Origin: Pseudomonadota bacterium
GTDB taxonomy: Bacteria; Pseudomonadota; Alphaproteobacteria; Acetobacterales; Acetobacteraceae
Reading direction: 5' to 3'
Length of the DNA: 45,385 nucleotides
Assembly: GCA_018971725.1 (NCBI GenBank)
Contig: JAGXAE010000004.1
Span: forward strand, 1-45,385
The notes under the pieces are model-generated. The model ran no database searches, was not told where the DNA came from, and worked only from the letters and a program-made list of their open reading frames with translations. Shown here in pieces: positions 1 through 33,171 of the stretch. How positions within the stretch are numbered: position 1 is the stretch's first letter; each line of letters opens with the position of its first letter. Both the position numbers and the translations under genes were made by a program.

Positions 1-78
1 CAAACGGATATCTTCAAGCTGAGGTACATTGCCGTCATGCACATGAAGTAGAGACCGAAGGTCGATTTTATTTGCCAT
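1..78 (-). CDS. N-terminus of an unidentified protein running off the left edge
   Basis: A leftward open frame begins with ATG at 78-76 and stays open to the window edge (26 codons, beginning MANKIDLRSLLHVHDG). Its composition (charged, amphipathic) looks protein-like, but no clear Shine-Dalgarno sequence precedes the start and 26 residues are too few to name a family. It could equally be a chance open frame. Its function cannot be judged from the window. Confidence 0.3.
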   Translation of the reverse strand, partial: MANKIDLRSLLHVHDGNVPQLEDIRL

Positions 79-481
79 AGAATAGCTAAGTACCGGCACC
101 TGATAAGAGCGTAACATTGTGAGGTCTGATGCCTCAGGTGCTAGGAACGGCGAAGTTTTTGATAAAAATAGCCTCCCAGCTTCAGGACAAGTTATGTTTC
201 AAGCAGATGATTTTCTCTGCGGCACAAGTTAGATTTATTAGACCCTATATGCCTTGTAAGCAATGCAGCAGAGTATGGAACTGCAAAACTAGCTTGAACA
301 GGGTCACTGCATATGGAGAATCTGTAGCTTTTATCGGCAAATCTTTTAGATTGATACTCGAACGTCTCCAGTCGCGGGTAGGTGACCTGAGGTAGAAAAT
401 CAGATAGCATCCTGAATTTTGCCTTTGTAATCCCTTTCATAAATCCCGATATAAACTGTTCTCCGGGAATAAGGAAAAACG
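79..481. other. No supported gene; AT-rich intergenic DNA
   Basis: I see no convincing gene here. Overlapping open frames exist on both strands (129-395 forward, 192-512 reverse), but neither has a good ribosome binding site or recognisable motif, and they exclude each other. The stretch is AT-rich accessory DNA that may hold the promoter of the small gene at 482. Confidence 0.5.
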
Positions 482-673
482 ATGAATCAACGCAAAATAC
501 TCTCCAAGGCATTCAGTCATAGACCGCATTCGAAACGAATCCTTTCTTCGAAAGGATATGCACAGGAAGAATTATTTATCGAAGACGGATGGGTATTTCG
601 TGAGCATCACGGTAAGCATGTAGCGTGCATCTGCCGAGGTGAAAAGATAGATGAGTTCTTCGCAATTTCTTAG
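482..673 (+). CDS. Small hypothetical protein (63 aa)
   Basis: Short frame of 63 codons starting with ATG, preceded by an AAGGA ribosome binding site about six bases upstream, which is the main reason to accept it. The product is basic at the N-terminus (MNQRKILSKAFSHRPHSKR) and ends in a mixed segment with HHGKH and a Cys-x-Cys-free C-terminus; I recognise no family and see no membrane segment or signal peptide. It stands alone, about 330 bases before the MrcB-like nuclease gene and on the same strand, but with too large a gap to be called one operon. It could be a remnant of a longer gene. Confidence 0.4.
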   Translation: MNQRKILSKAFSHRPHSKRILSSKGYAQEELFIEDGWVFREHHGKHVACICRGEKIDEFFAIS

Positions 674-1005
674 ATTACCTGAAACGGAGGCTGAGGCAAG
701 CCATGTCCGCTGTCCCTTTTTGAGCGACCAGTGTGTTATCTTGCAATAGAAGTAATATTGCCCGTCAAATTGAGGCTCCCAGAGCGGCTGCTTTCGGGAA
801 ATACCCCTGATCCCAGAAATGACCATCATGGGCGCTGAGCCGTTGCAGGCCAACGCCGGCGGATGACCGGTCTTGGTATTCCCGTCGCGGCCTCCCTATG
901 GCCGGGTAGGGTCGCATCCGGTCGTTTAATAGCGTGCGTGTCTAGATAGAAAAAATTAGTTATACTACTATTGGTTAATACAATGCCACTGAGGCGGAGA
1001 AGCCT
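674..1005. other. Intergenic region with GC-rich inverted segments, no gene seen
   Basis: No gene is supported. The middle part (about 790-930) is GC-rich with several short self-complementary CCGG-type stretches, while 940-985 turns AT-rich and contains TATACT at 960-965, a possible -10 element for the nuclease gene at 1006; I see no good -35 partner. The stretch may contain remnants of older insertions. Confidence 0.4.
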
Positions 1006-1956
1006 GTGCCCTTACGTGAGAGCTTTGAGAGGATACTCAACGAGTACACTGTGGCCAGTCAAGAAAATTTTGTGCGACACAAGCTTGCGAACTTTATACG
1101 CAGTAATCTCCGCGATGATGTGGCATTTGCCATCGGTGAAAGCGATCGCCTGCTAATTAAAGGCAGTGCTGGCCAAGGCACTTGGGCTCGCGGCCCGTGG
1201 GTAGGCATTTTTGATAAGCTTGTTACGTCGAGTGCTCAGAACGGCTACTATCCGGTCTATCTGTTCCGTGAAGATATGACGGGCCTCTATCTGAGCCTCA
1301 ATCAGGGGATGACTGAGGCGAAAAAGCTTTATAAAGCGGATGCCAAGACTGCCCTGAAATCACGAGCTGCCCATTTTCGAGCCATGCTTGGAAAAGAAAT
1401 TCATGACTACCCAGAGCTCAATATCGATTTGCGGTCTTCTGACTCGACTAATGACACAGCTTTCTACGAAGCCGGAAACATATGTGCCAAGTTATACCCC
1501 CTGGGACATCTTCCGAACGAGACTCAGCTAGTGTCGGACCTCCTCAACATGATTCAGCTCTATGATCTCCTCATTCAGGGAGAGACCAATAGTGGAGTAA
1601 GCAATACGACTAAGGAAGGCGACGAGCCCTCAGAAATGACGTACGAGGACGCCACCCGCTTTCGTATGCACAAGCGCATCGAACGTAACGCAAGCTTAGC
1701 TAAATCCGTCAAAAAGCTTCACGGCTATATTTGCCAAGTATGCGATATCGATTTTGAAATTATCTATGGAGAAATTGGTAAGGAATACATTGAAGCCCAT
1801 CACCTTAAGCCCCTGGCCTCACTTAAGGGGAAGAGGGTGGCGATGGATCCGGCAAAGGATTTTGCAGTACTCTGCGCTAATTGCCACCGTATGATCCATC
1901 GCTCAGGCTGTGTCGATGATATCGCTCAGTTCAAGAAGGAACACTATCGTGGTTAG
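1006..1956 (+). CDS. MrcB-like (DUF3578) HNH endonuclease
   Basis: Predicted DNA nuclease of 316 aa. The N-terminal two thirds resemble the MrcB N-terminal/DUF3578 domain found in modification-dependent restriction proteins (KGSAGQGTWARGPWVGIFD near residues 50-68, then YYPVYLFREDMTGLYLSLNQG). The C-terminus is an HNH nuclease with a zinc-type Cys frame: C243, C246, H265-H266, C290, C293-H294 and H298. It would act on incoming DNA in the cytoplasm, probably reading modified bases; that role is inferred from the family. Translation starts at a GTG behind a GGCGGAGAAG ribosome binding site. Its stop overlaps the start of the MazG-like gene, so the two are probably made together. Confidence 0.82.
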   Translation: MPLRESFERILNEYTVASQENFVRHKLANFIRSNLRDDVAFAIGESDRLLIKGSAGQGTWARGPWVGIFDKLVTSSAQNGYYPVYLFREDMTGLYLSLNQGMTEAKKLYKADAKTALKSRAAHFRAMLGKEIHDYPELNIDLRSSDSTNDTAFYEAGNICAKLYPLGHLPNETQLVSDLLNMIQLYDLLIQGETNSGVSNTTKEGDEPSEMTYEDATRFRMHKRIERNASLAKSVKKLHGYICQVCDIDFEIIYGEIGKEYIEAHHLKPLASLKGKRVAMDPAKDFAVLCANCHRMIHRSGCVDDIAQFKKEHYRG

Positions 1957-2311
1957 TCCATCTCCAATGAACCTGACCAAGCTCTGTGATGAGCTGCGGA
2001 TTTTTGCTCAGGAACGCGATTGGGAGCAGTTTCATACTCCGAAAAACCTTGCTTCTGCCCTGATTGTAGAGGCGAGCGAACTATTAGAACATTTCCAATG
2101 GCTCAAAACTGGCGAGCTCGCTGAGCTAGATGAGCGCAAGCAGAATGAAATTCGCCATGAACTGGCTGACGTACTAATGTATCTGGTTCGTCTCGCTGAC
2201 AAACTTGATGTTGATCTAATGGCCGCTGCCTCAGAAAAGCTTGAGCATAATCGCATAAAATATCCTACGGAAAAGGTTCGCGGAGATTCTAGGAAATATT
2301 CAGAGTACTAG
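1949..2311 (+). CDS. MazG-like nucleotide pyrophosphohydrolase
   Basis: All-alpha NTP pyrophosphohydrolase of the short MazG-like type (120 aa), which hydrolyses (d)NTPs to NMPs and pyrophosphate. The helical metal-binding signature is visible as ASALIVEASELLEHFQW followed by ELADVLMYLVRLADKLDVDL, matching the EExxE...ExxD layout of the family. I prefer the GTG at 1949, because AAGGA lies eight bases upstream and the start overlaps the stop of the nuclease gene; an ATG at 1967 is the alternative (114 aa). Coupling to an HNH nuclease suggests a defence or nucleotide-pool role rather than housekeeping; this is inference. Confidence 0.85.
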   Translation: MVSPSPMNLTKLCDELRIFAQERDWEQFHTPKNLASALIVEASELLEHFQWLKTGELAELDERKQNEIRHELADVLMYLVRLADKLDVDLMAAASEKLEHNRIKYPTEKVRGDSRKYSEY

Positions 2312-2394
2312 TATTAATGCCGAGGCGAAGTATTTTCGTTGCTACCTTTCGGATCAATGATCTTAGATATCACTTCTTTTATACCTACCTCGCA

Positions 2395-3597
2395 CTAACT
2401 TTTATACCGATCGACAGCATTACCCCTCTTCAGCGCCCTCTGTGCCATCCAGGTTTGTCCTCTGCCTGAATTGAGTTCCGGTACCTTGAACCCAATTTGG
2501 GTCAAAAATGCTGAGATCAATGCGTCAATGGATTTCGGCGTCCCGATTTGTGCAACCAATGCACGGCCAAGCTGCGGGTGCAGACGGACAACGCCGTCCT
2601 GTGAGATGGTAAAGTCCACCGGGCTGAAGCTGTTTGCCCGGATCATATCCAATACAATCCGGTCGACGGTTGCCCGAATGGGTTCGATAAGATCCATGAT
2701 CAGGGCTGGACGCTCGTAGCGGGATTGGTGAAGGAACCCAACGGTCATATCGAGACCGACTTTCGCGGTTTCGATCCGCAGCAGGCTCTCGACGACAGCG
2801 TAGCCATAGTTCAGCATGGCCTGGACGGGGTGTCGGGCAAATCTGTTGCTGTGGTTCGCCGGACCGCGTCTGACGCCGATCGACAGCCAGGATTGCGGAA
2901 TTGGCTTTCGGCTGATCCCCTTCCATGAGATCGGCACGGTGCGCCAGGCATCAAAATAAAGCGTAGCACACTTGCCCTCGACGCCGAGCAAGGCTTCCTT
3001 CGGTAGTTCCCATGGCCGATCAAGCTTTCTCAATCCGTCGGTGATACTGGTGTCGGCTCTCTTGCGAAGGTCGTTGTCCGGCAAGCAGGCCAGGATCGTC
3101 TCGCGGGTCGCAAGCAGTTTCTTTCGAATCAACCACGCACCTAGTTCACGGTTCTGTGCTGTTGCTTCTGATGCTGCAATCTGGAGGCGGACCAAGGCTG
3201 AGTCATGACCAATTCCGGAATGGCCGATTGCTGCAACGACGTTACCCCGATAGTCAAGTTGTAGCAGTGGAATGTTTTGTTCAGCCAGCCAGGATAGAAC
3301 GCTCAGGGTTATCGCACCATTGCTGCCAAGCATAACGATGCGGGATGGAGCGTCTCGGTCACCCGGAAAGATGCGGGTGATCTCTTGCTTTTGAGGGTAA
3401 TGGGTAAAGCCGTTTTGGGCTTCTAGTGCTCCGTAATTGATCCGGAGTCGCATACCGTGACCGCTCAAAATGAGCGGTCGTTTTTCTCCCTTGGCAAGAC
3501 CAATGCTACGGGCTCTAGTGGTCTTGCTGCTATTCCAATAGACAGATCGATCATGCCAGTCGCTTCGATTTGAATGATTGGCAATATCACGACTCAC
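2395..3597 (-). CDS. Stand-alone Cas1-family integrase (casposase-like)
   Basis: Cas1-family DNA integrase, 400 aa. The N-terminal beta-domain is clear (LILSGHGMRLRINYGALE, then IVMLGSNGAITLSVLSWLAE), followed by the helical catalytic domain. The metal-binding residues are present: E207 in LLGVEGKCATLYF, H290 in VGFLHQSR, and D302 with E305 in MDLIEP. It is longer than most CRISPR Cas1 proteins (about 300-340 aa) by an N-terminal extension of about 40 residues. There is no cas2, no other cas gene and no repeat array in the window, so it is not a spacer-acquisition locus but fits Cas1-solo proteins such as casposases, which integrate DNA with terminal repeats. The start is a GTG inside a 4-base GTGA overlap with the upstream HTH gene, so the two are translationally coupled. 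Confidence 0.88.
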   Translation of the reverse strand: MSRDIANHSNRSDWHDRSVYWNSSKTTRARSIGLAKGEKRPLILSGHGMRLRINYGALEAQNGFTHYPQKQEITRIFPGDRDAPSRIVMLGSNGAITLSVLSWLAEQNIPLLQLDYRGNVVAAIGHSGIGHDSALVRLQIAASEATAQNRELGAWLIRKKLLATRETILACLPDNDLRKRADTSITDGLRKLDRPWELPKEALLGVEGKCATLYFDAWRTVPISWKGISRKPIPQSWLSIGVRRGPANHSNRFARHPVQAMLNYGYAVVESLLRIETAKVGLDMTVGFLHQSRYERPALIMDLIEPIRATVDRIVLDMIRANSFSPVDFTISQDGVVRLHPQLGRALVAQIGTPKSIDALISAFLTQIGFKVPELNSGRGQTWMAQRALKRGNAVDRYKS

Positions 3598-4544
3598 TGA
3601 GTGAAATCTCCATTACGGAAAAAATCAATGACCTTATCGAAATCTTTAAATACGTCCTCTTGAAAGTCATAGATATCACGGGATGCGTGAAGGAGAATAC
3701 AAAAAACCATAAAGTTCCAAGGGAAATACCTTACGTTTTCACCGAAAACTTTGAATGAATTTGCCACTTCAACGAGATCAGGCCGATAAATCATAGCCAA
3801 ATCGGGTGCTTGCCTAGCTGCGAAGCTCAGCGTTTTGACAACTCGCCTAGTACTGACAAATGATTTTGGTGGAAGAGCTTTTAATGAATGCTCTGTTGAG
3901 TCCGGTATGGGCTCATCACCATCTTCAGCCAACTGCCCGATTCCTGGCATCTTTATACAATTCAGGAGAGATACTTCTAGTTCTCCAGAAATTTCTGGGA
4001 GTATTTTGCTAACTTCTAAAAGCAGATAATCAATATCGAAATCGGCTCCAAACCTTGCCGCACGATAATATCTATTAAATACTTCTTCTGAAAGTAAATC
4101 TCTGAACGCCTTTAGTCTGAGGTCTACCTTATCCTTATGCAAGGCCTTTGGAGGTTTATATTTTTCATCGGAAGTCCGCCTATTGACGCCATGATCGTTT
4201 CTGAGTGGACGATATATACTTTTCGAGAGGCGACGATACTCGTGAATCATTGAGTATCTTGTTCGTCGCGTAAGAGAAGACGAGCCTTTCAGCCACAGAT
4301 CTATCCGAAGTTGATCGAACGTTTTTGCGCCGAATTTCATCGATCGACACAAGTGAAGAATAGATCGATAACTATCGCGGGACCACTCCCATCGAGGTGC
4401 ACGTTGCCCTGGATTTCGAACGCGTATAGGGCCTAGGACAAGTTCTTCATTTACCCAATCAGTTAGCTGCACAGTCGTTACTGATATTCCGTAATGAGTG
4501 GTGGTCCAGCGGTTCGCTCGGTCAAGAAGATATTGGCGTTCCAT
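3594..4544 (-). CDS. HTH (MerR-like N-terminus) protein coupled to Cas1
   Basis: Protein of 316 aa that I cannot assign to a named family. Residues 5-85 have the layout of a MerR-type winged helix: HYGISVTTVQLTDWVNEELV, a basic wing with RVRNPGQRAPRWEW, then SYRSILHLCRSMKFGAKTFDQL. The rest is helical and charged, without catalytic motifs I recognise. It is the first gene of a two-gene leftward unit whose last codons overlap the cas1 start, which suggests that it guides Cas1 to DNA ends or targets, or regulates the pair. GC is clearly lower than in the core genes, consistent with acquired DNA. Confidence 0.7.
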   Translation of the reverse strand: MERQYLLDRANRWTTTHYGISVTTVQLTDWVNEELVLGPIRVRNPGQRAPRWEWSRDSYRSILHLCRSMKFGAKTFDQLRIDLWLKGSSSLTRRTRYSMIHEYRRLSKSIYRPLRNDHGVNRRTSDEKYKPPKALHKDKVDLRLKAFRDLLSEEVFNRYYRAARFGADFDIDYLLLEVSKILPEISGELEVSLLNCIKMPGIGQLAEDGDEPIPDSTEHSLKALPPKSFVSTRRVVKTLSFAARQAPDLAMIYRPDLVEVANSFKVFGENVRYFPWNFMVFCILLHASRDIYDFQEDVFKDFDKVIDFFRNGDFTQ

Positions 4545-4701
4545 GTCCGTTTTCCTGTTGGGAAAAGTGCATCAACTCAGAGGCGGCTAAAATGAGCATA
4601 GGGCGGCCCCCTATCCAATAACAACTATGACCGGATTTGGCTGAAATCCATCGGTAAGCCTGCCTACGGATAGCCCATGACTAATGTAGATGAGGCTTTC
4701 T
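4545..4701. promoter_or_regulatory. Divergent control region between HTH-cas1 and the ParB-Mom-PolB operon
   Basis: This 157-base gap separates two divergent transcription units. It contains a short perfect inverted repeat, GGATTT at 4633-4638 and AAATCC at 4644-4649 with a 5-base spacer, and a second imperfect one (ATCGGTA/TACGGAT, about 4650-4671). Either could be an operator or a binding site for the HTH or ParB-like protein encoded on each side. I see no consensus promoter that I would defend. Confidence 0.4.
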
Positions 4702-5529
4702 ATGTATGAACCATCGTTACCTGTCGGGCGGATCACGGTCGATCCGGGCCTGCAACCTCGCATCGGCGGCCTGGATCTTGATCATGTAAAAGAGCTTGAG
4801 ACAGTTCCAGAGTCATGGCCACCCTTGAAGGTGGTTGCGCGAGGTGAGTCCTTTATCATTGTCGACGGCTTTCACCGCTTCGCTGCCGCTCAGAACTTAG
4901 AGCTAGAGACTATTGCGGTTGAAGTCCTTGACCAGCCTAAAGACGGGGATTTACTTGGGCTAGCCTTTGATCTGAACATCTCACACGGGCGTCAGCTCAC
5001 TTTGAACGACAAACGGGCGTTCGCAGCCCGGCTGCTCAAAGCGCACCCGGAATTATCAGAGCGAGAGATCGGTCGCCGCGTTTGTCTGGTGCAGCCGACA
5101 ATCGCCAAAATCCGCCAGGAATTGGAGAGCCGGGACGTCATCCAGCCAACGGATACGCGCGTTGGCCGCGACGGCCGGAGTTACACTGTCGCGCATAAGA
5201 ATAGGCCAGCCGCTCCAGACCGCTATCAAACAGGCCCGACGCTGCTAGAGCGGGTTGGTGATGCTTTCACCCCGGCAGAACGGCGCAACCAGCGTGGGAT
5301 TGCCCGCTATTTGCAAAAGCTCGCGGATGCTCTGGAAGATCAGGACGAGCTTGCAGGCTTTGAAACCTTCGAGGACGCGGCAGATGCCTGCCGGGTGGTC
5401 TTGGGTACTGAAGCCGCTGGTGAACTGGCTGAGCGTTTGGGCTGGTCTGCCGCGAACATCCTCAAAATAGCTGAAGCCCTCGGTTATGAGCCCAACAATC
5501 CGTCGGCCGATGAAAAGGCCCAAGCCTGA
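4702..5529 (+). CDS. ParB/RepB-like nuclease-fold DNA-binding protein
   Basis: ParB-superfamily protein, 275 aa. The N-terminal ParB domain is recognised by VGRITVDPGLQPRIGGLDLDHVKEL, VVARGESFIIVDGFHRFAAAQ (the GxHR box) and a segment LAFDLNISHGRQLTLNDKR typical of ParB proteins. It is followed by an HTH (LSEREIGRRVCLVQPTIAKIRQELE). No ParA is present, so plasmid-type partition is not complete; such lone ParB-like proteins are common in phages and mobile elements as regulators or DNA-binding factors. The ATG at 4702 is chosen because TGAGG lies six bases upstream; the in-frame ATG at 4690 lacks a site. It is the first gene of a densely packed operon ending with the DNA polymerase. Confidence 0.83.
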   Translation: MYEPSLPVGRITVDPGLQPRIGGLDLDHVKELETVPESWPPLKVVARGESFIIVDGFHRFAAAQNLELETIAVEVLDQPKDGDLLGLAFDLNISHGRQLTLNDKRAFAARLLKAHPELSEREIGRRVCLVQPTIAKIRQELESRDVIQPTDTRVGRDGRSYTVAHKNRPAAPDRYQTGPTLLERVGDAFTPAERRNQRGIARYLQKLADALEDQDELAGFETFEDAADACRVVLGTEAAGELAERLGWSAANILKIAEALGYEPNNPSADEKAQA

Positions 5530-6242
5530 TGTGCGCGTGCGTCGTTCAAGGGCAGGATGGCGCGGACACCACCGCGCAGATGGGGGTTCGAATCCCACCC
5601 GCACGCTCCACCGCATCTGGGGTCAAAGATCTAACCGTACGCAAGGTGCTGCCGAGCGTGATCCGTCACCTTATAATAAGGAATCATTATCTTCATGCGA
5701 TGCCCGCCGCCGGTTGGCGCTGCTTCGGCATTTATGCTGGGCAGGAATTGAAGGGCGCTGCGGTATTCACCGCTGGACCACGCCACGGTTACCGCGTTCT
5801 GGTCGGAGGCAGACCCCAGCATGTCGCCGTCCTAGCGCGGCTGTGGCTGGCCGACGATTTACCCAAAAATTCCGAAAGTCGTGTACTCGGCATTCTGCTT
5901 CGACATGCCAAGCGTGAGAAGTTGTGGAAGCTGATCCTCTCCTATGCCGACCCGGCAGCGGGGCATTCAGGGATCATCTACCGGGCCACAGGCTGGCTCT
6001 ATCTCGGGCGTGGCCAACCCTCACGCTATTTGGCCCTTGCCGATGGGCAGGTCGTTCATCCCCGCACAGCCTATGATCGTTTCGGGTCGAATAACGCCGC
6101 GCATCTCTCCCGCACCGGGATCATCGCCCGGCATGTCAGCCAACGCGGCAAGCATCGCTATGCCTATATTCTTGATCCATCTTGGCGCTGGCGGCTGCGT
6201 GAAGCGGTGCAGCCCTATCCGGGCAAGGACGGTGCGCCATGA
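5529..6242 (+). CDS. Mom-like DNA hypermodification protein (GNAT-like fold)
   Basis: Resembles the phage Mu Mom family, which converts adenine in DNA to N6-carbamoylmethyl-adenine and so shields DNA from restriction. Recognisable parts are HLIIRNHYLHAMPAAGWRCFGIYAGQELKGAAVF, ARLWLADDLPKNSESRVLGILLRH and the Mom-type stretch LILSYADPAAGHSGIIYRATGWLYLGRG. Length is 237 aa from the ATG at 5529, which overlaps the ParB stop as TGATG. However, codons 3-28 coincide with the tRNA-like RNA, and the family-like sequence only starts near residue 33, so an internal start (for example GTG at 5646) is possible. The 3' end overlaps the next gene by ATGA. Protection of the element's own DNA is the likely role. 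Confidence 0.68.
   Translation: MCACVVQGQDGADTTAQMGVRIPPARSTASGVKDLTVRKVLPSVIRHLIIRNHYLHAMPAAGWRCFGIYAGQELKGAAVFTAGPRHGYRVLVGGRPQHVAVLARLWLADDLPKNSESRVLGILLRHAKREKLWKLILSYADPAAGHSGIIYRATGWLYLGRGQPSRYLALADGQVVHPRTAYDRFGSNNAAHLSRTGIIARHVSQRGKHRYAYILDPSWRWRLREAVQPYPGKDGAP
5535..5610 (+). tRNA. tRNA-Gly-like RNA with abnormal anticodon loop
   Basis: A 76-nt sequence folds as a tRNA. The acceptor stem is GCGTGCG/CGCACGC (5535-5541 with 5600-5606), the discriminator is U5607 and CCA is encoded at 5608-5610. The D-arm is GTTC/GGAT with an AAGGGCA loop, the anticodon stem GCGCG/CGCGC (5560-5564, 5573-5577) and the T-loop TTCGAAT (5587-5593). It resembles bacterial tRNA-Gly: G1-C72, C2-G71, U73, and ACC within the loop (C35, C36) are the known E. 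coli glycine identity elements. Oddities are an 8-base anticodon loop GACACCAC without U33, a G-A mismatch in the T-stem and one extra C before the acceptor strand. It may therefore be charged yet unable to decode. It sits between the ParB and Mom-like genes and overlaps the first codons of the latter. Confidence 0.7.
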
Positions 6243-6844
6243 GTAAGCGCATCCGCGATTACAAGGCCGAATACGCCCGCCGCATCTCACGCGGGCAAGC
6301 TCAAGGTCTGTCACGCTCTCAGGCCCGGGGCCATCCCAGGGCTTTGGAACCAACGAAACGCTCCATCAGCAAAGCCACTAAGCCGGCTCAAGCGGCCAAG
6401 CCTCCCAAGTTCGATCGCCGTTTGGAAGAAGGCTTTCGTGCGCTGCGTGATGGTCAGACACTGACCGCCAGTGCCAAGTCGGTACGTGTCTCACCGGAAC
6501 GCTTGCGCCGCTATGTCGCTGAAACCGGTATGGCTGAACGCAAAGGCAGTCGGTGGATTATCGGCCCCGATATACGCCCGCGCATCATGCAGATGTTCAG
6601 CAACGGTGAAATTCAGCATGTCACCGTTGCTCCTGATGAGGCGCGTTTAATTGGGGCTTATCATTCCGCCGTCGGACGGTTTTTGAACACGAATGACCCA
6701 GCCTTTTTAGACATCTTTGATGGGCAGTCCGTCACAGACATCAAAGGCAAATCTCATCCCTTCGAAACAGATCCAAACGCGCTGTACCGGCTTAGCGAAA
6801 CCGGCAGCGACAGTTTCGAAGACGTCTATCGCATCGTTGTTTAA
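6239..6844 (+). CDS. Basic HTH-like protein of unknown function in the Mom operon
   Basis: 201-aa protein that I cannot name. The first 60 residues are strongly basic and low in complexity (KRIRDYKAEYARRISRGQAQG, then a Lys/Ala/Pro stretch), as in DNA-binding tails. Residues about 65-110 read as a helix-turn-helix (FRALRDGQTLTASAKSVRVSPERLRRYV). The C-terminal part is acidic and mixed (DIFDGQSVTDIKGKSHPFETD). The start codon overlaps the stop of the Mom-like gene by ATGA, so it is translationally coupled and probably works with Mom, for example in target choice or regulation; this is inferred from position only. Confidence 0.6.
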   Translation: MSKRIRDYKAEYARRISRGQAQGLSRSQARGHPRALEPTKRSISKATKPAQAAKPPKFDRRLEEGFRALRDGQTLTASAKSVRVSPERLRRYVAETGMAERKGSRWIIGPDIRPRIMQMFSNGEIQHVTVAPDEARLIGAYHSAVGRFLNTNDPAFLDIFDGQSVTDIKGKSHPFETDPNALYRLSETGSDSFEDVYRIVV

Positions 6845-6860
6845 CATTAGGAGATCAAAC

Positions 6861-7253
6861 ATGCCTACCCCTAAGAAATTTGGTGACGACAAAAGCATGA
6901 AAGCTGGATTGAACGCTGAGGTTCGGCGGCGGCGGGCATTACAGCGCCTGGGCTGCGATAATCCACGCTGTTTGCGATGTGGAGAAGATGACCCGCACTG
7001 TCTGGAACTTCACCATCTCGCGGGCCAAGCTTATGACGGCACACTCGTGACTTTATGCCGGAACTGCCACCGCAAGGCGTCCGACATGCAGCGGGACCAT
7101 CCGCCACAGGTCAATGATCCACCAAATCTTACTGAGACGATCGGACGCTTCCTGTTGGGGTTGGCCGATCTTTTTATGCTCATCGTTGATAAATGCCGTG
7201 AATTTGGCTTCGCCTTGCTCGAATCATGCGGGCCAGACACGGCAGGAGACTAA
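6861..7253 (+). CDS. Small HNH-family protein
   Basis: 130-aa HNH nuclease-like protein. The core is a zinc-type HNH: CDNPRCLRCGEDDPHC, LELHHLAGQAYDGTLVTLCRNCHRKASD, with the paired His and the CxxCH motif intact. The C-terminal third carries a hydrophobic helix (IGRFLLGLADLFMLIV) that may be a membrane or packing helix and is unusual for HNH proteins. Start ATG at 6861 follows AGGAG by eight bases; the longer open frame that begins at 6717 overlaps the preceding gene and is not used. It lies 16 bases after the HTH-like gene and five before the polymerase gene. HNH nucleases accompany PolB and Cas1 in casposons, which fits this context. Confidence 0.78.
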   Translation: MPTPKKFGDDKSMKAGLNAEVRRRRALQRLGCDNPRCLRCGEDDPHCLELHHLAGQAYDGTLVTLCRNCHRKASDMQRDHPPQVNDPPNLTETIGRFLLGLADLFMLIVDKCREFGFALLESCGPDTAGD

Positions 7254-7258
7254 ACCTA

Positions 7259-10255
7259 ATGCCCGCCCAAATCCCTACTCTAATAGAGTCGATACCGGTT
7301 GCGATCCGAGCCTTTGCGGAGCGTCGAGACAACTCAATCTTTAATAGAGGTAGTTTCAAACGGCCCGATGAAGTCGACCCTTCAGAGTACACACTCATCT
7401 TCGACACCGAGACAAACACGGATGCAGCCCAACAGCTGCGCTTCGGATGCTTCCAAGTACGGAAAGGCAATACGCTAGAAACGGCAGGTATTTTCTATGA
7501 CCCAGAAACCTTGAGCGCTGACGAGATAGAAATTTTGAACGATTATGCTATACGTAATGATCTGACCGTTGGCTCGGTAGCAGAGTTCATCTCTGAGATA
7601 TTCCTTCCCTATGGCTATAGTCGCCGAGCGATGATCATTGGCTTCAATCTCCCGTTTGATATCTCGCGCATTGCCATTGGTCATGGCTCGGCCCGGGGCA
7701 AGATGATGCACGGAGGTTTCACGTTCAAATTATCAGGACGGAAGGACCGACCCGCCATCCAGGTCAAGCATTTATCACGGCGAGCTTCTGTCCTCCGCTT
7801 TGCCGTGCCCGGCAAACAGCTTACTCCCAGAGGTATGCGCAGGCGCCAGATCGCCGTACAGCCGCATCGTGGCTTCTTTGTTGATGTTAAGACCCTGGCA
7901 GCAGCGCTCACCAGCCGGTCCTTCAGCCTTGCCGGTTTGGGCGAGTTCCTTGGCGTGGCATCGGGCAAGCTGGAGACAGAAGAGCACGGCGGACCACTGA
8001 CCGATACATATCTCGATTATGCCATGCGAGATGTGCAAACCACTTGGGAATGTTTCCTCAAATTACGTGATCGCTATGACGCGCACGGTTTGACGGAAAC
8101 ACCTATCTATAAAATCTACAGCGAGGCGGGGTTGGGCAAGGCTTATCTGAAGCAGATGGGCATCCGTCCCTGGAAAGAAACCCAAGGCACGATGCCGCCG
8201 GAACTGATCGGCGCCATTGTCAGCAGTTATTCTGGCGGACGTTCCGAAGTGCATATTCGCCGGGACATTCAGCAAATCGCCTATTGTGACTTTCTCTCGA
8301 TGTATCCGACCGTCTGCGTGCTGATGGGGCTATGGCGCTTCGTGACCGCGCAAGGGATGACATGGCATGATGCCACTGACCCCACGCGTCAAATGCTCGA
8401 TAATATCACGCTTGCCGATGTGCAAGCTAAGTCGTTCTGGCCCGAACTGGCGACGCTGGTCGAAGTAGAACCCGACGATGATTTGTTTCCGGTGCGGGCG
8501 AAGTATGGTTCGGAAGCTCATTACACCATCGGCCTCAACCATCTGAGCAGCGACAAGCCGCTCTGGTTTACCTTGGCCGATTGCATCGCCGCCAAGCTGC
8601 TCACCGGCAAAACCCCGCGCATTTTGCGAGCCATCAGATTTGAGCCGGGACCGCCTCAGACTAACATGCAGCCGTGTAAGATTGCGGGGCGCAAGGAATT
8701 CAAGATCGACCCGCGCCGTGATGATTTCTACCGGCGGTTAATCGATCAGCGCACCGAGACCAAGCAGCGCATGAAGAGTGCGGGTGCGGGTAGCCGCGAG
8801 CAACTCGATGCCGCGCAGATGGCCCTGAAAATCCTGGCCAATTCGACCAGCTACGGAATTTTCTTTGAACTGAATGTCGAGGTACTGAGCAAGCCGGAGA
8901 TGGCGCAATGCTATGCCAGCCACGAGGCCGGATTTTCGGTGAAAATCAGCCAGGACGAGACGCCGGGGCAGTATTTTCATCCTCTACTGGCCACGCTCAT
9001 CACCGGGGCGGCGCGGCTGATGCTGGCCTGTGCTGAACGGCTGGTTTTGGATGCCGGGCTGGATTGGGTCTTCTGCGATACGGACAGCCTTGCCATCGCC
9101 AAGCCTAGCAATATGCCGGGTCCAGAATTCTTGGAGGCGGTCGAGGCCGTGCGGGGGTGGTTTGATCCGCTCAACCCCTACGCCAAGCCGGGGGCAATCC
9201 TGAAGCTTGAGGATGCCAATTACGGGTTGGAGGGGCAGAGGCCCGGAAAAGACTTGGCCCCACTCTATTGCTTCGCGGTCTCAGCCAAGCGCTACGCGCT
9301 GTTCAACCTCGACGACTTGGGTCTTCCGGTCATCCGCAAAGCGTCTGCCCATGGGCTGGGGCATTTGATTGTCCCTTACAAATCTGATGACGCCCCAGCC
9401 AACTTACCCGCGCCGCAGGCAAGCCTGAACGACATTGGCGTGGACCGTTGGCAGCATGATGTTTGGCATCGGATTGTCAGCGCGGCACTGGCAGGGCACC
9501 CGGAGCAGGTCCGGCTTGATGATCTGCCCGGCTTTAATGCCCCATCGGTCAGCCGCTATGCCGCCACCACGCCAGAACTGTTGCGCTGGTTCAAGCGGTT
9601 CAACCGAGGCAAGCCCTACCGCGAACAAGTCCGCCCCTTCGGCTTTATGCTGGCCTTCACCGCAGGAAACACTGCCCGAGGCGCAATGTCAGGTGAGTTG
9701 GTGGAAGGCGATGGAAAGCGCAGGGGTAGGCGCTCTGGGGTCAAGAAGCTCTCCGATGCCCCACGCGCTGTTGCACCATTCGATAAGGACATCACCCGCG
9801 CCGCCAAGCATTGCTTTGACCGGGATACTGGTCTCGCCGTTGCACCCAAGGCCCTGAAAACCTACCGGCAAGCTTTGTTGCGTTACCATCTCCATCCCGA
9901 GGCAAAGTTCCTGGGCGGGGACTATTTTGAGCGGGGTAGCACCACGAGGCGGCATATTCAGGTCACCGAAGTTCAGCGCATCGGCAAGGAAGCCAATCGC
10001 TGGGAGGAGCAGTTTTATCTGGGTGATGATCCTGAAGCGCAAGCCGAATATGGAGTGTCGGCGGAGGGCCAAGAGCAGGTGAATGCTATGGTCCAGCGTG
10101 CGGTCGCTCAATTTGGGCAGAGGAAATTGGCCAAAGCCGCCAGAATATCCCGAAACACTCTGGCGGCAGTGGTGAATGGCACTGCCACCATGCCGCCGCA
10201 GGCCGTGGAGCGAATTCGTCGGGCTGTTACAAAACTTAACACCTCGATTACTTGA
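7259..10255 (+). CDS. Family B DNA polymerase with 3'-5' exonuclease and C-terminal HTH
   Basis: 998-aa DNA polymerase of family B. Exonuclease motifs: D49/E51 in IFDTET (Exo I), N130 and D134 in GFNLPFD (Exo II), Y254 and D258 in YAMRD (Exo III). Polymerase motifs: D344 in CDFLSMYP (motif A), K524 with N528 and Y532-G533 in KILANSTSYG (motif B), D607 and D609 in CDTDS (motif C). All catalytic acids are present, so it should be an active proofreading polymerase. The last 60 residues (GQRKLAKAARISRNTLAAVVNG) form an XRE-like HTH, not usual for PolB. Start ATG at 7259 is preceded by AGGAG. It ends the operon and probably copies the mobile element; whether it is primed by protein, RNA or nothing cannot be told. 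Confidence 0.92.
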   Translation: MPAQIPTLIESIPVAIRAFAERRDNSIFNRGSFKRPDEVDPSEYTLIFDTETNTDAAQQLRFGCFQVRKGNTLETAGIFYDPETLSADEIEILNDYAIRNDLTVGSVAEFISEIFLPYGYSRRAMIIGFNLPFDISRIAIGHGSARGKMMHGGFTFKLSGRKDRPAIQVKHLSRRASVLRFAVPGKQLTPRGMRRRQIAVQPHRGFFVDVKTLAAALTSRSFSLAGLGEFLGVASGKLETEEHGGPLTDTYLDYAMRDVQTTWECFLKLRDRYDAHGLTETPIYKIYSEAGLGKAYLKQMGIRPWKETQGTMPPELIGAIVSSYSGGRSEVHIRRDIQQIAYCDFLSMYPTVCVLMGLWRFVTAQGMTWHDATDPTRQMLDNITLADVQAKSFWPELATLVEVEPDDDLFPVRAKYGSEAHYTIGLNHLSSDKPLWFTLADCIAAKLLTGKTPRILRAIRFEPGPPQTNMQPCKIAGRKEFKIDPRRDDFYRRLIDQRTETKQRMKSAGAGSREQLDAAQMALKILANSTSYGIFFELNVEVLSKPEMAQCYASHEAGFSVKISQDETPGQYFHPLLATLITGAARLMLACAERLVLDAGLDWVFCDTDSLAIAKPSNMPGPEFLEAVEAVRGWFDPLNPYAKPGAILKLEDANYGLEGQRPGKDLAPLYCFAVSAKRYALFNLDDLGLPVIRKASAHGLGHLIVPYKSDDAPANLPAPQASLNDIGVDRWQHDVWHRIVSAALAGHPEQVRLDDLPGFNAPSVSRYAATTPELLRWFKRFNRGKPYREQVRPFGFMLAFTAGNTARGAMSGELVEGDGKRRGRRSGVKKLSDAPRAVAPFDKDITRAAKHCFDRDTGLAVAPKALKTYRQALLRYHLHPEAKFLGGDYFERGSTTRRHIQVTEVQRIGKEANRWEEQFYLGDDPEAQAEYGVSAEGQEQVNAMVQRAVAQFGQRKLAKAARISRNTLAAVVNGTATMPPQAVERIRRAVTKLNTSIT

Positions 10256-10366
10256 AGGGCAAATAAGACCCAGTTCGAAAATAATGAATTAGAATAGGGT
10301 TCTTGAAAGCGGGCTTTGCTTACCCCTCTGTCGGTATTGGTATCGCCAGCCGATACACAGCCAGCG

Positions 10367-11047
10367 CTATCGAAGCGCCGCTCCGCCCCCGAGAACTGCT
10401 TGCGCTCTTGCCAATTTCTGAATTGATTTCGGGAAAAGTACAAAAATAAGACTTTTGAACCAATCGATCCCAAACTGCTGCTGCAAGAGCAGCTTAGCAT
10501 CTTTGGCTGTAGCCAACTTCGCTTCGCGATGGAACTTGATAATTTTTCCGAGTAGCTCAGTAGTCCGGTCGACTATTTTTAACTGAATGAATTCCTCAAC
10601 TTTGAAGAAGATTGCGGAGCTGAAATCTAGCGTACGGTTGCCTTTGGCTCCTATGACATCCACTAAGACAATATCGACACCGAAATTGTACTTCCATTGC
10701 GGAATTTTCTGCTCGAATTCGTCCTTAAATGACATGAAGGCCCGGGAGTTGTGGTAGGCGTTGATCCCATCAACTTCGCCGATGAGTACCGCGTGGTCCC
10801 CCTCATTTGGCCCAAAGAGCGATACCCCAGGCAAGAAGAAATGAATTTGTTTGCCCGAGTACTGATTCAGCAAGTTGATATTGTCTAGGAAATCAGAAAC
10901 CGGTTCTCGTCTAAGATTTTGGTCAAAAAAGATAAAACCAATCACATTACGTCCCGTAGGTATGCCTTGAGCAGGGTTATTCCCCACGAGAAAGTGTTCT
11001 TCATTTAGTATTTTATTGATATATCCGTAGTCTGGAGCAGGCAGCAA
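10367..11047 (-). CDS. Unidentified 226-aa protein
   Basis: I do not recognise this protein. It has mixed alpha/beta character (VIGFIFFDQNLRREPVSDFLDNINLLNQYSGKQIHFFLPG; then GVDIVLVDVIG) and a charged helical middle; no signal peptide is seen and no catalytic motif stands out. The start is a TTG at 11047, chosen because a perfect GGAGG (11055-11059, reverse strand) lies seven bases upstream. It is AT-rich like the two genes upstream on the same strand and convergent with the polymerase gene. The neighbourhood (PD-(D/E)XK-like protein, DUF2971) suggests a defence-island cargo gene. Confidence 0.6.
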   Translation of the reverse strand: MLPAPDYGYINKILNEEHFLVGNNPAQGIPTGRNVIGFIFFDQNLRREPVSDFLDNINLLNQYSGKQIHFFLPGVSLFGPNEGDHAVLIGEVDGINAYHNSRAFMSFKDEFEQKIPQWKYNFGVDIVLVDVIGAKGNRTLDFSSAIFFKVEEFIQLKIVDRTTELLGKIIKFHREAKLATAKDAKLLLQQQFGIDWFKSLIFVLFPKSIQKLARAQAVLGGGAALR

Positions 11048-11118
11048 AACACGTCCTCCCGAACTTCTACAAAAAAGATTTTACATTGAAGGATGGCGTT
11101 TATCCAAACGTAATTCTA

Positions 11119-11595
11119 TTATTTCCAGAAATGTGCCGCGAATTGGAGCCCTCGCAATATGACAAATTGCTCCGGAACAATTTCACCGTAGTAGCTGCGC
11201 CCTCGCAGTATTTCGCGGATTGGCTCCATGAACTCTGATAACATTTTTATCTTAGCGGCGCCAAGTTGGTCATGGTTCTTTTTGGCTCCAAATACAAAAA
11301 TTCCATCTTGTTCTATTTCGTCTTCTTTAACATCAAACCCTTTTAGTAAATCTGGAATGTATTGCCGACCACGGGTAAATTTTTTCTTAAGTTTTTCGAT
11401 ACGCTTTTCCCATCTATCGGCATCTGTTGATGTTTCGATGTGGACAATATGTCTCGGCGCAGGGCGGAATGCCACAACGTCTAGTTCAGCTTCATAACCG
11501 CCTCCACGAAGTTTTCCCACACGAACGTTCCGTAGAATGAAGTAGCCTTGATATTCATACCACTCGGCTACAAGCTGTTCCAAAAAATTTGCCAT
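11119..11595 (-). CDS. PD-(D/E)XK-like nuclease-fold protein (158 aa)
   Basis: Small protein whose N-terminal half has the layout of a restriction-endonuclease-like fold: FLEQLVAEWYEYQGYFILRNV (E11), GGYEAELDVVAFRP (D39) and HIVHIETSTD (E54-T-S56). The usual catalytic Lys of ExK is Ser here, so it may be inactive or use another residue. The family name is a judgement from pattern, not from a search. It begins with ATG at 11595 with only a weak AAAGAA site, 87 bases after the DUF2971 gene on the same strand and 71 bases ahead of the unidentified 226-aa gene. Nuclease or sensor roles in defence are possible. Confidence 0.6.
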   Translation of the reverse strand: MANFLEQLVAEWYEYQGYFILRNVRVGKLRGGGYEAELDVVAFRPAPRHIVHIETSTDADRWEKRIEKLKKKFTRGRQYIPDLLKGFDVKEDEIEQDGIFVFGAKKNHDQLGAAKIKMLSEFMEPIREILRGRSYYGEIVPEQFVILRGLQFAAHFWK

Positions 11596-11682
11596 TTCTT
11601 TGTTCTACCTCAAAATTATCAAAGCTCTTACGTCGCACCTTTACCCTCGTTTCTTGGGGTACTTGGCCATACGATCCATATT

Positions 11683-12513
11683 TCAGTATTTTAAAATTTC
11701 CAGTCCAAAGCAGCTTTCTTTTACTCTTGCCTCGTAAAGTGCGATGTGACTTCTCCCTCCCACCGCGTTTCTGACACGAGCTTTGTCTTCATCTGCCATG
11801 TTGCAACCGAGGATAACCCCGACAAGAGCTTGATCACAAAATTTTAGTGGTCCAGATTTTGGTGTAATCACTCGCCATTCTTGTTCATATGACCACCCCT
11901 GATCCTTAGTCAAAATAACGGCTTGGAAAAGCTGTCCGGCATCAAAATTTTGTCGGTTTAATATGAGAGGAAGACGCGTTGTACGATATGTAACCGGATA
12001 TAATGATTCTCTGATATCGGGCCATTTCTCCGAGGAAAAAATTAAACAAACCCCTCGGTGAGAACTGGCGTAGTGAGCCCACATAAGAATGCTATCATTG
12101 TTAATAGAGAAAGATATCACACCTGATTTGTTTACTTTCTCCTGAATATTTCTGAGTATGCATTCAAATTTTTTCTGCTCGTGCGCTTTCAAACCAGAAC
12201 GAAACGCTTTTAATTCTGTGTTCTTAAGCATGCGAGGAGCAACAAATTTTCTATACACTTCACAGTGCTCTTCTTCAGTTTTAGCGCTTCGAGCTGCAAT
12301 TAAATATCTAACAAATGCTGGATCATAAGAATCTACTGGCGGAACTTTGCAATCGAACGGATCGTTAAAGCTTGCCGGTGACGAACAATATATCTCGTTG
12401 GCTTGAATAATATGTAGCAATCTCTGTTTGTCGCAATCGCTTGCAAAGCTGCGGTACTTATACAAGTGTCCCGGCCTGAAGTTCGGCTCTTGCGTTCCGT
12501 GGATTATGCTCAT
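11683..12513 (-). CDS. DUF2971 family protein
   Basis: 276-aa protein of the DUF2971 family, recognised by the N-terminal LYKYRSFASD and IYCSSPASFNDPFDC, the central ISFSINNDSILMWAHYASSHRGVCLIF and the later WSYEQEWRVI. The molecular function of the family is unknown; members are frequent in defence islands and on mobile elements. The ATG at 12513 follows GAGGATAACCTC, which supplies a Shine-Dalgarno sequence and is itself a short palindrome. Codon use is AT-rich compared with the core chromosome genes. It is the first gene of a leftward group of three. Confidence 0.85.
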   Translation of the reverse strand: MSIIHGTQEPNFRPGHLYKYRSFASDCDKQRLLHIIQANEIYCSSPASFNDPFDCKVPPVDSYDPAFVRYLIAARSAKTEEEHCEVYRKFVAPRMLKNTELKAFRSGLKAHEQKKFECILRNIQEKVNKSGVISFSINNDSILMWAHYASSHRGVCLIFSSEKWPDIRESLYPVTYRTTRLPLILNRQNFDAGQLFQAVILTKDQGWSYEQEWRVITPKSGPLKFCDQALVGVILGCNMADEDKARVRNAVGGRSHIALYEARVKESCFGLEILKY

Positions 12514-12636
12514 GAGGTTATCCTCGAAATCGTCACGATACCGACATTATAGATGCGAGCCAACTCCTTCAATGTTGCCCCTTCGGTCCGACGTCGCTCG
12601 TCCTTCGACTGCTGCTACGAGTTAGAGCAGCCGGGT

Positions 12637-13150
12637 GGCCCACGCGCTGCCCGTGAGCCTTGGCCCGACTACCTCCCTCGGCCGGGGGGTATGGATTAGT
12701 TCATTCTCCATGTCTGCCAAGCACCCTTTGTAGCCGTTTACACATAAAATATGAGGGTCTTGTTGTCGTCTTATAAATTAGACAACGGGAGGTAACCCAT
12801 TGCCCCCCCTGATTTAAGTTTGGCTTCACTCATAAGAATCTGATTGGGTCCGCTATCGGACCACCCGACTCGGGACTTAATCTGCCGCTGCAAAGCGGTA
12901 GGTGGCTCTCTATTTAGAAATCACTATACCCCGATAGCTTGGCGTTGGGGGTATAGTGATATCCGAATTGAGAGCCACCCAGCCTTTGGCAGAGATGGAT
13001 AAGTCCCCGAGTTGGACGGTCCAAAGCTTAAGTTGAATTAAGGGCTGCCGTGGCTCGCTTGTTGTCGTCTAATTTATAAGACGGAGACGATGCCCCCGTG
13101 CAAAAACATAAATCCGACTAACCCGAGGTCCTCATATTCCAAGGGAGGGC
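12637..13150. repeat. Long imperfect palindromic repeat, full copy
   Basis: No gene; instead a large inverted repeat centred at 12940. Paired arms are 12858-12879 with 13000-13022 (GGACCACCCGACTCGGGA type), 12901-12910 with 12970-12979 (GGTGGCTCTC/GAGAGCCACC) and 12920-12932 with 12948-12960 (ATCACTATACCCC and its complement), with a loop near 12933-12947. Further out, the 16-mer GTCTTATAAATTAGAC at 12768-12783 recurs inverted at 13067-13082, with arms of unequal length. Upstream of the arms, 12637-12720 also matches the second copy near 27.5 kb. It could be a non-autonomous mobile element, a recombination site or a folded RNA. It marks the border between the Cas1/PolB region and the catabolic island. 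Confidence 0.75.
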
Positions 13151-13690
13151 AAATTTCTTTATGAGCCCCAATTCCAATCCGGCGCTCCCATGTATCGGCA
13201 GACCGTTCCATTCCGGTTCAGGTGGAAGTGCGACCCGGAACGGCCACTATGGTACCGCCGATCTCGTCTTTTCCATGCCGACCCATGGGTACGAGTTGCG
13301 CACGATCATTGAGCAAACGGCTCAGGTCATCAAAGAGGCGTGTTTGGCGGGGGTGGTGTGTTGGAACATCACAGCAGGCTATGCTGGGAAACCAGATCAA
13401 TAAATCGTGATGAGCCCCGGCGGGAGAAGGATGTGGGACCGTGATGTTTTTGCTGCTTTAGGTGGTTGAAAGCCTCCTGGTGTGTCGATACGGTAATTCA
13501 GCCGTTAGTCATTGTTAACCTTGGCGAATGGCTGGTTTAGCTTTGGCGCTTCCAATGCGTGCGTTTGCACATGCGGCGGGGATGGCTCTCGCCGCTTTGT
13601 GTGATTGTGAAAGCCTTGCGGCAAGCAAGGATCGAGGCATTGGTGGTAAATCAGGAAAGCGGTTTCATGCGGGACGGCGCATAAAACAAT
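13151..13690. other. No gene recognised; probable junction DNA
   Basis: I see no supportable gene in these 540 bases. An 80-codon forward frame (13161-13403) and a 60-codon reverse frame (13218-13400) overlap each other and neither shows a family motif. The segment from about 13510 leads into the truncated autotransporter and may be its old upstream region. Confidence 0.4.
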
Positions 13691-32108: not shown

Positions 32109-33062
32109 TCAGGAAACCGTCACCGCGTAATCGTGCAGCGGCAGTTTCTTCTTGATTACGCCGTTTTCGAACAGGAAATCCCGGTAAACCTTGTAGCGTT
32201 TCGCATCCAGCGCAGCCGGATCATTGTCGAAATAAGGCGGCAGGGCGTGCCAGGATGCGATGTCCAGCTTGTCATTCAGGCTTGGATTGTCCTTGAGGAA
32301 TTGCTTCAGCATCCCGTCCGGATCAGTCTTCAGCGCGGCAACACCTTCCTTCACCGCGGCAAGAAACGCCGGCAGCGCCGGGTTCTTCAAGCCGCTGGAG
32401 TTGGAGAGCACAATCAGCTCCTCCGACGGCGGCACGCCGTAATCTTCCGGCAGGAACACCACCGGGTCCAGCCCGGCCTCGGCCAGCTGGATATCCTCAT
32501 AGGTCCGGTAGGTGCCGATCACCGCGTCCACCTCGTTGGAGCGCAGCGAGGAGACCAGCTCGAAATTCACGTTCACTAGCTGAATATCCTTCAAGCTCAT
32601 GCCGACATGTTTCAGCATCGCGCCGATAATCACCGGCTCCACGCCCGCCACGGAATACCCCACCTTGCGGCCTTTCAGGTCCTGTAGCTTGGTGATGCCG
32701 CTGCGCTTCAGCGCGGTGAGGGTGTTCAGCGGTTTGTCGATCAGTGTGCCGGTGCGGCGCACGGGCAGCCCTTGGTCCACCAGCAGATAAAGCTGCGTCT
32801 GATACGTCAGCGCCGCATCCGCCTTGCCGGAGGCGACGAGGCGCGGCGGCAGGTCCGGGTCGGTGGGGGGAACCAGTTTCACATCAAGCCCGGCCTTCGC
32901 ATAAGCCCCGCAATATTTCGCGGCGAAAAGCGGCGCATGGTCCGGGTTCACGAACCAGTCCAGGATGAGTGTAAAAGGCATAGGCGCCGCGGCACGCGAA
33001 ATCACGGGTGCGGCAAGCGCCATTGAGGCGGTAGACAAAAATAAACGTCGATTGAGGGCCAT
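32109..33062 (-). CDS. thiY: ThiY-like periplasmic pyrimidine-precursor binding protein
   Basis: 317-aa substrate-binding protein of the NMT1/THI5 family, which binds thiamine pyrimidine precursors for an ABC importer. A signal peptide with twin-Arg-like start (LNRRLFLSTASMALAAPVISRAAA) leads into FTLILDWFVNPDHAPLFAAKYCG, a hallmark of the family, and DLKGRKVGYSVAGVEP. The gene lies directly behind a TPP riboswitch, which is strong support for thiamine salvage. No permease or ATPase gene adjoins it, which is odd as the usual thiXYZ set is together. The ATG at 33062 lies six bases after the end of the aptamer, whose AAGGGAG serves as ribosome binding site. Confidence 0.88.
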   Translation of the reverse strand: MALNRRLFLSTASMALAAPVISRAAAPMPFTLILDWFVNPDHAPLFAAKYCGAYAKAGLDVKLVPPTDPDLPPRLVASGKADAALTYQTQLYLLVDQGLPVRRTGTLIDKPLNTLTALKRSGITKLQDLKGRKVGYSVAGVEPVIIGAMLKHVGMSLKDIQLVNVNFELVSSLRSNEVDAVIGTYRTYEDIQLAEAGLDPVVFLPEDYGVPPSEELIVLSNSSGLKNPALPAFLAAVKEGVAALKTDPDGMLKQFLKDNPSLNDKLDIASWHALPPYFDNDPAALDAKRYKVYRDFLFENGVIKKKLPLHDYAVTVS

Positions 33063-33068
33063 TGGCGC

Positions 33069-33146: not shown

Positions 33147-33171
33147 TAATGTCCCGGTTTCTCGTATGGCG

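Follow-up and report, generated by a model that had tools for sequence, protein, structure and literature searches.

Mom produces N6-carbamoylmethyl-adenine, for which the name glycinamide is also used, and to our knowledge the source of the carbamoylmethyl group in this modification is not settled. In its passage on Mom, one review names an acyl-CoA as donor and gives ‘glycyl coA’ as the example (PMC7824862). Glycine carriers working outside translation have been proposed in staphylococci: the non-proteinogenic tRNA-Gly of Staphylococcus aureus has an altered T stem and has lost GG18-19, and staphylococcal tRNA-Gly species with altered T stems and D loops are thought to escape EF-Tu and to serve cell-wall synthesis, according to passages of PMC4052509. 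The glycine identity set of bacteria comprises U73, G1-C72, C2-G71, G3-C70, C35 and C36 (PMC9976931, Table 1).

Here, we describe a stretch of 45,385 nt (the window; contig JAGXAE010000004.1, positions 1 to 45,385, assembly GCA_018971725.1, Acetobacteraceae) in which a tRNA-Gly-like RNA lies across the start of a mom gene. From comparative sequence analysis we consider it likely that this RNA is a dedicated non-ribosomal tRNA-Gly and the partner of Mom in a casposon-like element, in many phages and in at least one plasmid, that it is charged by the host, and that its glycyl group is used by Mom. The partnership between RNA and Mom is well supported by these comparisons; charging and transfer we infer.

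A casposon-like element that encodes Mom

The first ~12 kb of the window appear to constitute a casposon-like element encoding Cas1, a ParB-like protein, Mom, an HNH endonuclease and PolB. The features considered are as follows.

2395..3597, minus strand: Cas1 (casposase-like), PF01867, E 5.3e-37; 48-71% identity in six related loci
4690..5529, plus strand: ParB-like gene directly upstream of Mom; PHROG ParB-like, 1.2e-12
5529..6242, plus strand: ORF of the Mom-like gene, the first 34 codons of which overlap the RNA
5535..5610, plus strand: tRNA-Gly-like RNA, identified by sequence, fold, relatives and covariance models
5535-5541/5600-5606, plus strand: acceptor stem of the RNA, GCGTGCG/CGCACGC
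5535-5606, plus strand: G1 to C72 of the RNA, followed by U73 at 5607 and an encoded CCA at 5608-5610
5631..6221, plus strand: Mom (GNAT-fold) domain, PF25680, E 6.7e-47
6239..6844, plus strand: conserved ORF downstream of Mom; no family hit, similar ORFs in relatives by eye
6717..7253, plus strand: HNH endonuclease ORF; PHROG HNH 9.1e-10, no Pfam hit, true start probably further in
7226..10255, plus strand: family B DNA polymerase; PF00136 9.1e-06, barely over the cut-off, and relatives

The combination by which a casposon is recognised, Cas1 together with a family B polymerase, is thus found in the window. Cas1, PolB and ParB recur in six related casposon loci from five genomes (in L250 and L251 only part of PolB is present, as the stretches available end there), and the ParB-like gene has been kept in all six of these loci examined, with 56-72% identity. 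A repeat search of positions 1-13500 gave no clear pair of element ends. Large nested inverted repeats, with arms of 75 nt and 60 nt, occupy 12767-13083 near a possible element end, and the outer pair of arms terminates in 17 perfectly matching bases, CGTCTTATAAATTAGAC. A restriction-like gene, MrcB_N-like plus HNH, adjoins the element at 1006-1956 on the plus strand. In a related casposon contig, ARAGORN reports a 93-base tRNA-Gly (ccc) ~1.4 kb past PolB (L009:12192-12284), which may be spurious.

The window Mom was compared with its family by sequence and by predicted structure. PF25680 matches residues 35-231 with 160.2 bits against a cut-off of 27.1, and phage Mu Mom (PDB 8bv8), which matches by sequence with E 8.3e-15, is also the top Foldseek match of the AlphaFold model (TM 0.65-0.75). 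Among the 50 of 1030 Foldseek matches listed, apart from Mom itself, none is named as an aminoacyl-tRNA transferase. Mean pLDDT of the model is 84, with residues 1-17 and 19-23 falling below 50. The preliminary description had the RNA fused into Mom; the Mom domain begins only at residue 35 (5631), so that the RNA overlaps just the first residues of the ORF, which are probably unstructured, and the notion of a fusion is not borne out. A proposed correspondence between Mu S124, mutated in 8bv8, and A127 of the window protein was discarded, residue 124 of the Mu sequence used not being a serine and the numbering of the deposit being different.

A tRNA fold with the glycine identity set

The remainder of that description fares better. 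The tRNA fold with an encoded CCA that it placed at the head of the Mom-like ORF is seen at 5535-5610, and the glycine identity elements that it listed (G1-C72, C2-G71, U73 and CC) are present in the sequence; indeed U73, G1-C72, C2-G71, G3-C70, C35 and C36 are all found, the position of CC within the 8-nt loop being ambiguous. It had also reported an 8-base loop without U33 and an anticodon ACC. The loop is indeed 8 nt long (GACACCAC), with CC inside and no clear U33, but the anticodon is ambiguous, as G32-C38 may pair and leave 6 nt. A bulged A in the T stem (CCC-A-CC), absent from the earlier description, is shared with most relatives, and U8 is retained. The window RNA thus departs from an elongator tRNA in its anticodon loop, which is not of 7 nt with a clear U33, and in its T stem, which is not regular.

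ARAGORN, run on the window, did not report this RNA, and the Rfam tRNA model gives it 21 bits where gathering requires 29 (E 0.053 when the whole library is run over 351 bases). The sole Rfam match over gathering score in the window is a TPP riboswitch at 33052-33149 on the minus strand (60.7 bits). We used two covariance models, R1, built from eight casposon RNAs, and R2, trained on the hits of R1; the window RNA scores 90.4 bits with R1, in whose training set it is included, and 60.8 bits with R2.

The fold, not the peptide, is conserved among casposon relatives

In L009, from another genome, Mom is 78% identical to the window protein and the RNA region is nearly unchanged between diverged flanks; ARAGORN types this RNA as tRNA-???. 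Alignment of eight casposon copies (A2, 7 distinct rows) gave 147 paired cells out of 147; both bases have been replaced at four pairs, three belonging to the acceptor stem. In the larger alignments A5 (47 distinct rows) and A10 (42 distinct rows from loci outside training), 97.2% and 98.9% of cells are paired, and changes on both sides of a pair number 231 and 217, respectively, where shuffling gives on average 61 and 54; both were fitted to the model structure, which favours that structure, and slid versions are 30-45% paired.

Over 397 genomes of the family, R1 gave nine hits of at least 78 bits in seven genomes, all nine of which adjoin Mom, the other ten hits (at most 56 bits) being ordinary tRNAs by ARAGORN. 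Over 385 genomes of the class there was, besides the window, no hit above 54 bits, and of 18 loci outside its own genome the 13 that were run through ARAGORN are ordinary tRNAs. A covariance-free descriptor, which requires CC at fixed loop positions, gave 0 hits in 2,088 kb of block-shuffled DNA; it finds 6 of 9 casposon copies and the RNA at 77 of the 80 Antuna-type and 9 of the 27 Salinibacter-type loci introduced below, and misses the window copy because of its 8-nt loop. A fold kept with compensatory changes, together with the lack of descriptor hits in shuffled DNA, argues that the window RNA has not arisen by chance.

Peptide coding was considered as the cause of this conservation and rejected. 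Insertions and deletions in the RNA region shift the frame between relatives while the fold stays, so that the overlapping peptide is not what is conserved; most of ORF residues 1-23 are, furthermore, modelled without confidence.

The RNA accompanies Mom in phages and a plasmid

A tRNA-Gly-like RNA beside other Mom homologues, for which the preliminary description had proposed a search, is found in several deep Mom lineages. In Microbacterium phage Antuna, an annotated tRNA-Gly lies ~30 bases from a ParB-Mom pair on the opposite strand. An annotated tRNA-Gly also follows the annotated Mom of Salinibacter phage B2_17 at a distance of ~30 bases; its T stem has the bulged A as well, and position 33 is G rather than U. 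The Mom frame of B2_17 (L076:2435-3070) appears to switch in its second half, where a broken gene or a sequencing error is possible.

Antuna Mom was used as a query against 2.9 million viral contigs, and the best 80 of 355 encoding a relative were taken as loci. When all methods are combined, the RNA lies beside Mom in every one of these best 80 of 355: the casposon-trained R1 found it in 63, with one hit elsewhere, and the remaining 17 were recovered by R2 (14), by alignment as an identical block (two) and by eye (one). ARAGORN reported seven tRNAs within 2 kb of Mom across the 80 loci, all seven of which are tRNA-Gly that either overlap the Mom match or lie no more than 40 bases from it. A ParB like that of Antuna is encoded at 20 of the 80. 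The RNA was likewise found at 22 of 27 Salinibacter-type loci (16 by R2, four by ARAGORN, two of these untyped, and two by eye), at 51 of 61 Bradyrhizobium-type loci (one of the 51 lying 0.8 kb away) and at four of 22 named phage and plasmid loci (Antuna, B2_17, BarretLemon and pCB82_1). In total, more than 150 Mom loci carry the RNA, near-copies included as in all our locus counts, whereas counts of RNA features use distinct RNAs only; ARAGORN mostly missed it, finding it at 7 of the 80 Antuna-type loci. Those tRNAs near Mom that ARAGORN does type are Gly or untyped, with a few of other isotypes more than 200 bases away.

The placement of the RNA relative to Mom is far from fixed. It overlaps the 5′ end of Mom in casposons and mostly the 3′ end in Antuna-type phages, and lies mostly 38-130 nt downstream in the Bradyrhizobium type, where all but one are within 130 bases after the Mom match and two are on the other strand; it is on the strand opposite Mom in Antuna, L210-L212, L221, L222, L305 and L308. 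Since it may thus be 5′, 3′, downstream or antisense, the RNA should act in trans.

Some loci contain further copies or unusual gene models. A second copy of the same score in pCB82_1 (L314, 307471-307540) lies inside an annotated 186-base ORF with no full-length annotated Mom adjoining, and is perhaps the remnant of a duplicated cassette. Two equal-score copies occur on one contig in L150 (18-91 and 2174-2247) and in L180 (1311-1380 and 2022-2091). At L066:3174-3243, an annotated plasmid CDS reads through the RNA, reflecting either a gene model that is too long or a casposon-like overlap of gene and RNA.

Mom lineages that lack the RNA

Not every Mom is so accompanied. R2, ARAGORN and the descriptor found no RNA at any of 20 Corynebacterium Stickynote-type Mom loci, and none was detected at 18 of the 22 named phage and plasmid loci, phage Mu included, or at 11 distant Mom-like matches in genomes, of which four score below the Pfam cut-off. 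Ten of the 61 Bradyrhizobium-type loci are without it, with nothing visible by eye in the next 230 bases. Among 299 genomes of the phylum, nine have a PF25680 match, five of them over the cut-off with the window included; ARAGORN found no tRNA in five of these phylum loci, and R2 gave no hit in eight (L112, L113, L115-L120). Searching viral contigs with the window Mom or A3 as query returned no relatives. In L204 and in L064 (Enterococcus phage phiEf11, which has a ParB-Mom pair), no RNA was found even though their Moms, sisters to one another, fall inside an RNA-carrying phage clade; here it has apparently been lost.

In a tree of 74 hand-picked Moms, the RNA occurs in at least four separate deep branches, one of which (L227) rests on a single locus. 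The query protein of the Bradyrhizobium plasmid type, which stands in the tree in place of the 61 viral loci of that type, groups with phage Mu Mom (support 100/99). Occurrence across deep branches together with absence from some indicates that the partnership is old or repeatedly acquired, and that it can be lost. The RNA, undetected in some lineages including Mu, is hence not required for every Mom; for those without it, host Gly-tRNA or some other donor would have to serve.

Glycine identity is retained while decoding features relax

Among 73 distinct RNAs, the acceptor stem is fully paired in 72, G1-C72 and C2-G71 are present in all 73, G3-C70 in 72 and U73 in 72, and CC occupies positions 35-36 in all 65 seven-nt loops, as parsed by a procedure that favoured CC. 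Other features are less constant: U33 is found in 30 of the 65 seven-nt loops and U8 in 14 of 73, a T-stem A is bulged in 60 of 73, and 52 encode their CCA. The 42 distinct Bradyrhizobium-type RNAs, which lie outside the training set and were parsed without favouring CC, behave similarly, with a paired acceptor stem in 40, G1-C72 and C2-G71 in 42, G3-C70 in 37, U73 in 40, CC in 32 of 33 loops, U33 in 13 of 33, U8 in 16 of 42, the bulged A in 41 of 42 and an encoded CCA in 35. The D arm is shrunken in many RNAs. Thirteen ordinary tRNA-Gly taken for comparison all have T8 and, on visual inspection, a T preceding the anticodon, and a few of the Mom-side copies stand near such tRNAs, with U33 present and no bulge.

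The part read by GlyRS is kept and much of the part read by the ribosome and EF-Tu is relaxed. R1 and R2 were trained on RNAs with the glycine identity elements, so that invariance among their hits is partly selection, a bias limited by the recovery of the RNA from nearly all of the 80 loci. An ordinary tRNA-Gly of phage Stickynote scores 39.7 bits with R2, which is close to the weakest Mom-side hits (~40 bits), and the BarretLemon copy is missed; because R2 fails to split weak members from ordinary tRNA-Gly, it is the position beside Mom that carries the weak cases. The preliminary description had suggested a dedicated glycyl donor, and the pattern predicted for one, in which glycine identity varies least and decoding features are often lost, is what the sequences display; that the donor is used by Mom we infer.

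Discussion

In the mechanism that we propose, the RNA would be transcribed and its ends matured, the CCA being encoded or added. With its glycine identity set intact, we propose, it is a substrate for charging by the glycyl-tRNA synthetase of the host, while the lost U33, the T-stem bulge and the lost U8 would keep it off EF-Tu and the ribosome, reserving the charged pool. Mom, a GNAT-fold enzyme, would then move the glycyl group to N6 of adenine in DNA. N6-glycyl-adenine and N6-carbamoylmethyl-adenine are isomers, and an intramolecular rearrangement of the former would thus give the known Mom product; on chemical grounds, the glycyl amine may attack C6 via a five-membered intermediate. DNA modified in this way would be expected to resist restriction. 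The GNAT fold itself does not decide between Gly-tRNA and acyl-CoA as donor.

Other roles for the RNA can be envisaged. The one that survives best, although we regard it as improbable, is that uncharged RNA binds Mom as a regulator, scaffold or decoy, in which case the bulged A might stand in for the target adenine of DNA or itself undergo modification. This A is one of the most consistent differences from tRNA (60/73 and 41/42), and its sequence context is often one, such as G-A-C, that has a partial resemblance to the Mom target. Binding of this kind would not, however, explain why the elements of glycine identity, which are divided between the anticodon and the acceptor end, have all been retained amid drift elsewhere, and some RNAs have no bulge at all.

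A slightly poorer prospect is a cis-acting tRNA-like element of the mom mRNA, through which synthesis of Mom would be controlled, by a switch in translation or by processing, much as it is by Com and the mom leader in Mu. Mom expression is risky to the host, so control is to be expected; Mu Mom is annotated as translationally regulated by Com, and in casposons the RNA overlaps the first mom codons. Yet the phage RNAs mostly overlap or follow the 3′ end of Mom, several of them on the opposite strand, and a leader needs no glycine identity at U73 and C35-C36.

We give little credence to an ordinary phage-style tRNA-Gly that aids translation or replaces host tRNA cut by defence nucleases. Some copies are typed as tRNA-Gly by ARAGORN and by the annotators of the records, and in a few U33 is present and the T stem regular; against this, U33 is gone in more than half of the 7-nt loops and U8 in most RNAs, most have the T-stem bulge, the D arm is often shrunken, and ARAGORN-typed tRNAs close to Mom are only Gly or untyped. 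Weakest of all is the idea of a relic of a tRNA gene that served as casposon integration site, for which there is a precedent in five euryarchaeal casposons that target the last bases of tRNA genes, as reported in passages of PMC4046053, and which we rejected because the RNA is internal to the element, between Cas1 and PolB, shows compensatory changes and recurs in phages and a plasmid.

Returning to the RNA as a dedicated glycine carrier for Mom, it is tempting to extend this reading to the family as a whole. With somewhat less assurance, we think it probable from the same comparisons that Mom enzymes are aminoacyl-tRNA-dependent DNA modifiers, that mobile elements carry a non-decoding tRNA-Gly to reserve glycine, and that Mu Mom uses host Gly-tRNA; one RNA-carrying Mom branches with Mu Mom, which would accordingly draw on the host pool. 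A conserved tRNA-Gly-like partner RNA offers a concrete, testable answer for the source of the carbamoylmethyl group. If this is correct, DNA would join proteins, lipids and the cell wall among the targets of tRNA-dependent chemistry, and the aminoacylation machinery would directly supply a class of DNA modification. Our findings also define an RNA family beside Mom, link casposons to DNA hypermodification and offer a non-decoding, probably chargeable tRNA scaffold. The sequences suggest that the elements may themselves supply the glycine carrier with which their DNA is decorated. In searches of open-access PubMed Central, none of the papers listed seems to describe a tRNA with Mom, which is a weak indication of novelty, since subscription journals and bioRxiv are mostly outside it.

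The system shares components with several that are already described. Phage Mu Mom (PF25680, PDB 8bv8) belongs to the same protein family and is the best fold match of the window Mom; it differs in that no such RNA was detected in the Mu genome, and its donor is described as acyl-CoA in the passage of PMC7824862 cited above, where tRNA is not mentioned. Bacterial casposons of family 3 (HenMar-C1 and others, PMC4046053) similarly combine Cas1, PolB and HNH, and the passages that describe them there do not mention a Mom gene with a tRNA-like RNA. Ordinary bacterial tRNA-Gly has in common with the Mom-linked RNA the glycine identity set, U73 and an acceptor GCG...CGC, whereas the latter often lacks U33, U8 and a regular T stem and is tied to Mom. 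A parallel in function would be the staphylococcal non-proteinogenic tRNA-Gly, proposed in the portions of PMC4052509 drawn on here as donors for FemX, FemA and FemB, which would likewise be steered from translation by changes in the T stem and D loop. There, the acceptor is a peptidoglycan precursor, whereas the enzyme partnered by the Mom-linked RNA modifies DNA; most Mom-linked RNAs are, moreover, far more degenerate than their staphylococcal counterparts, and they are carried by mobile elements.
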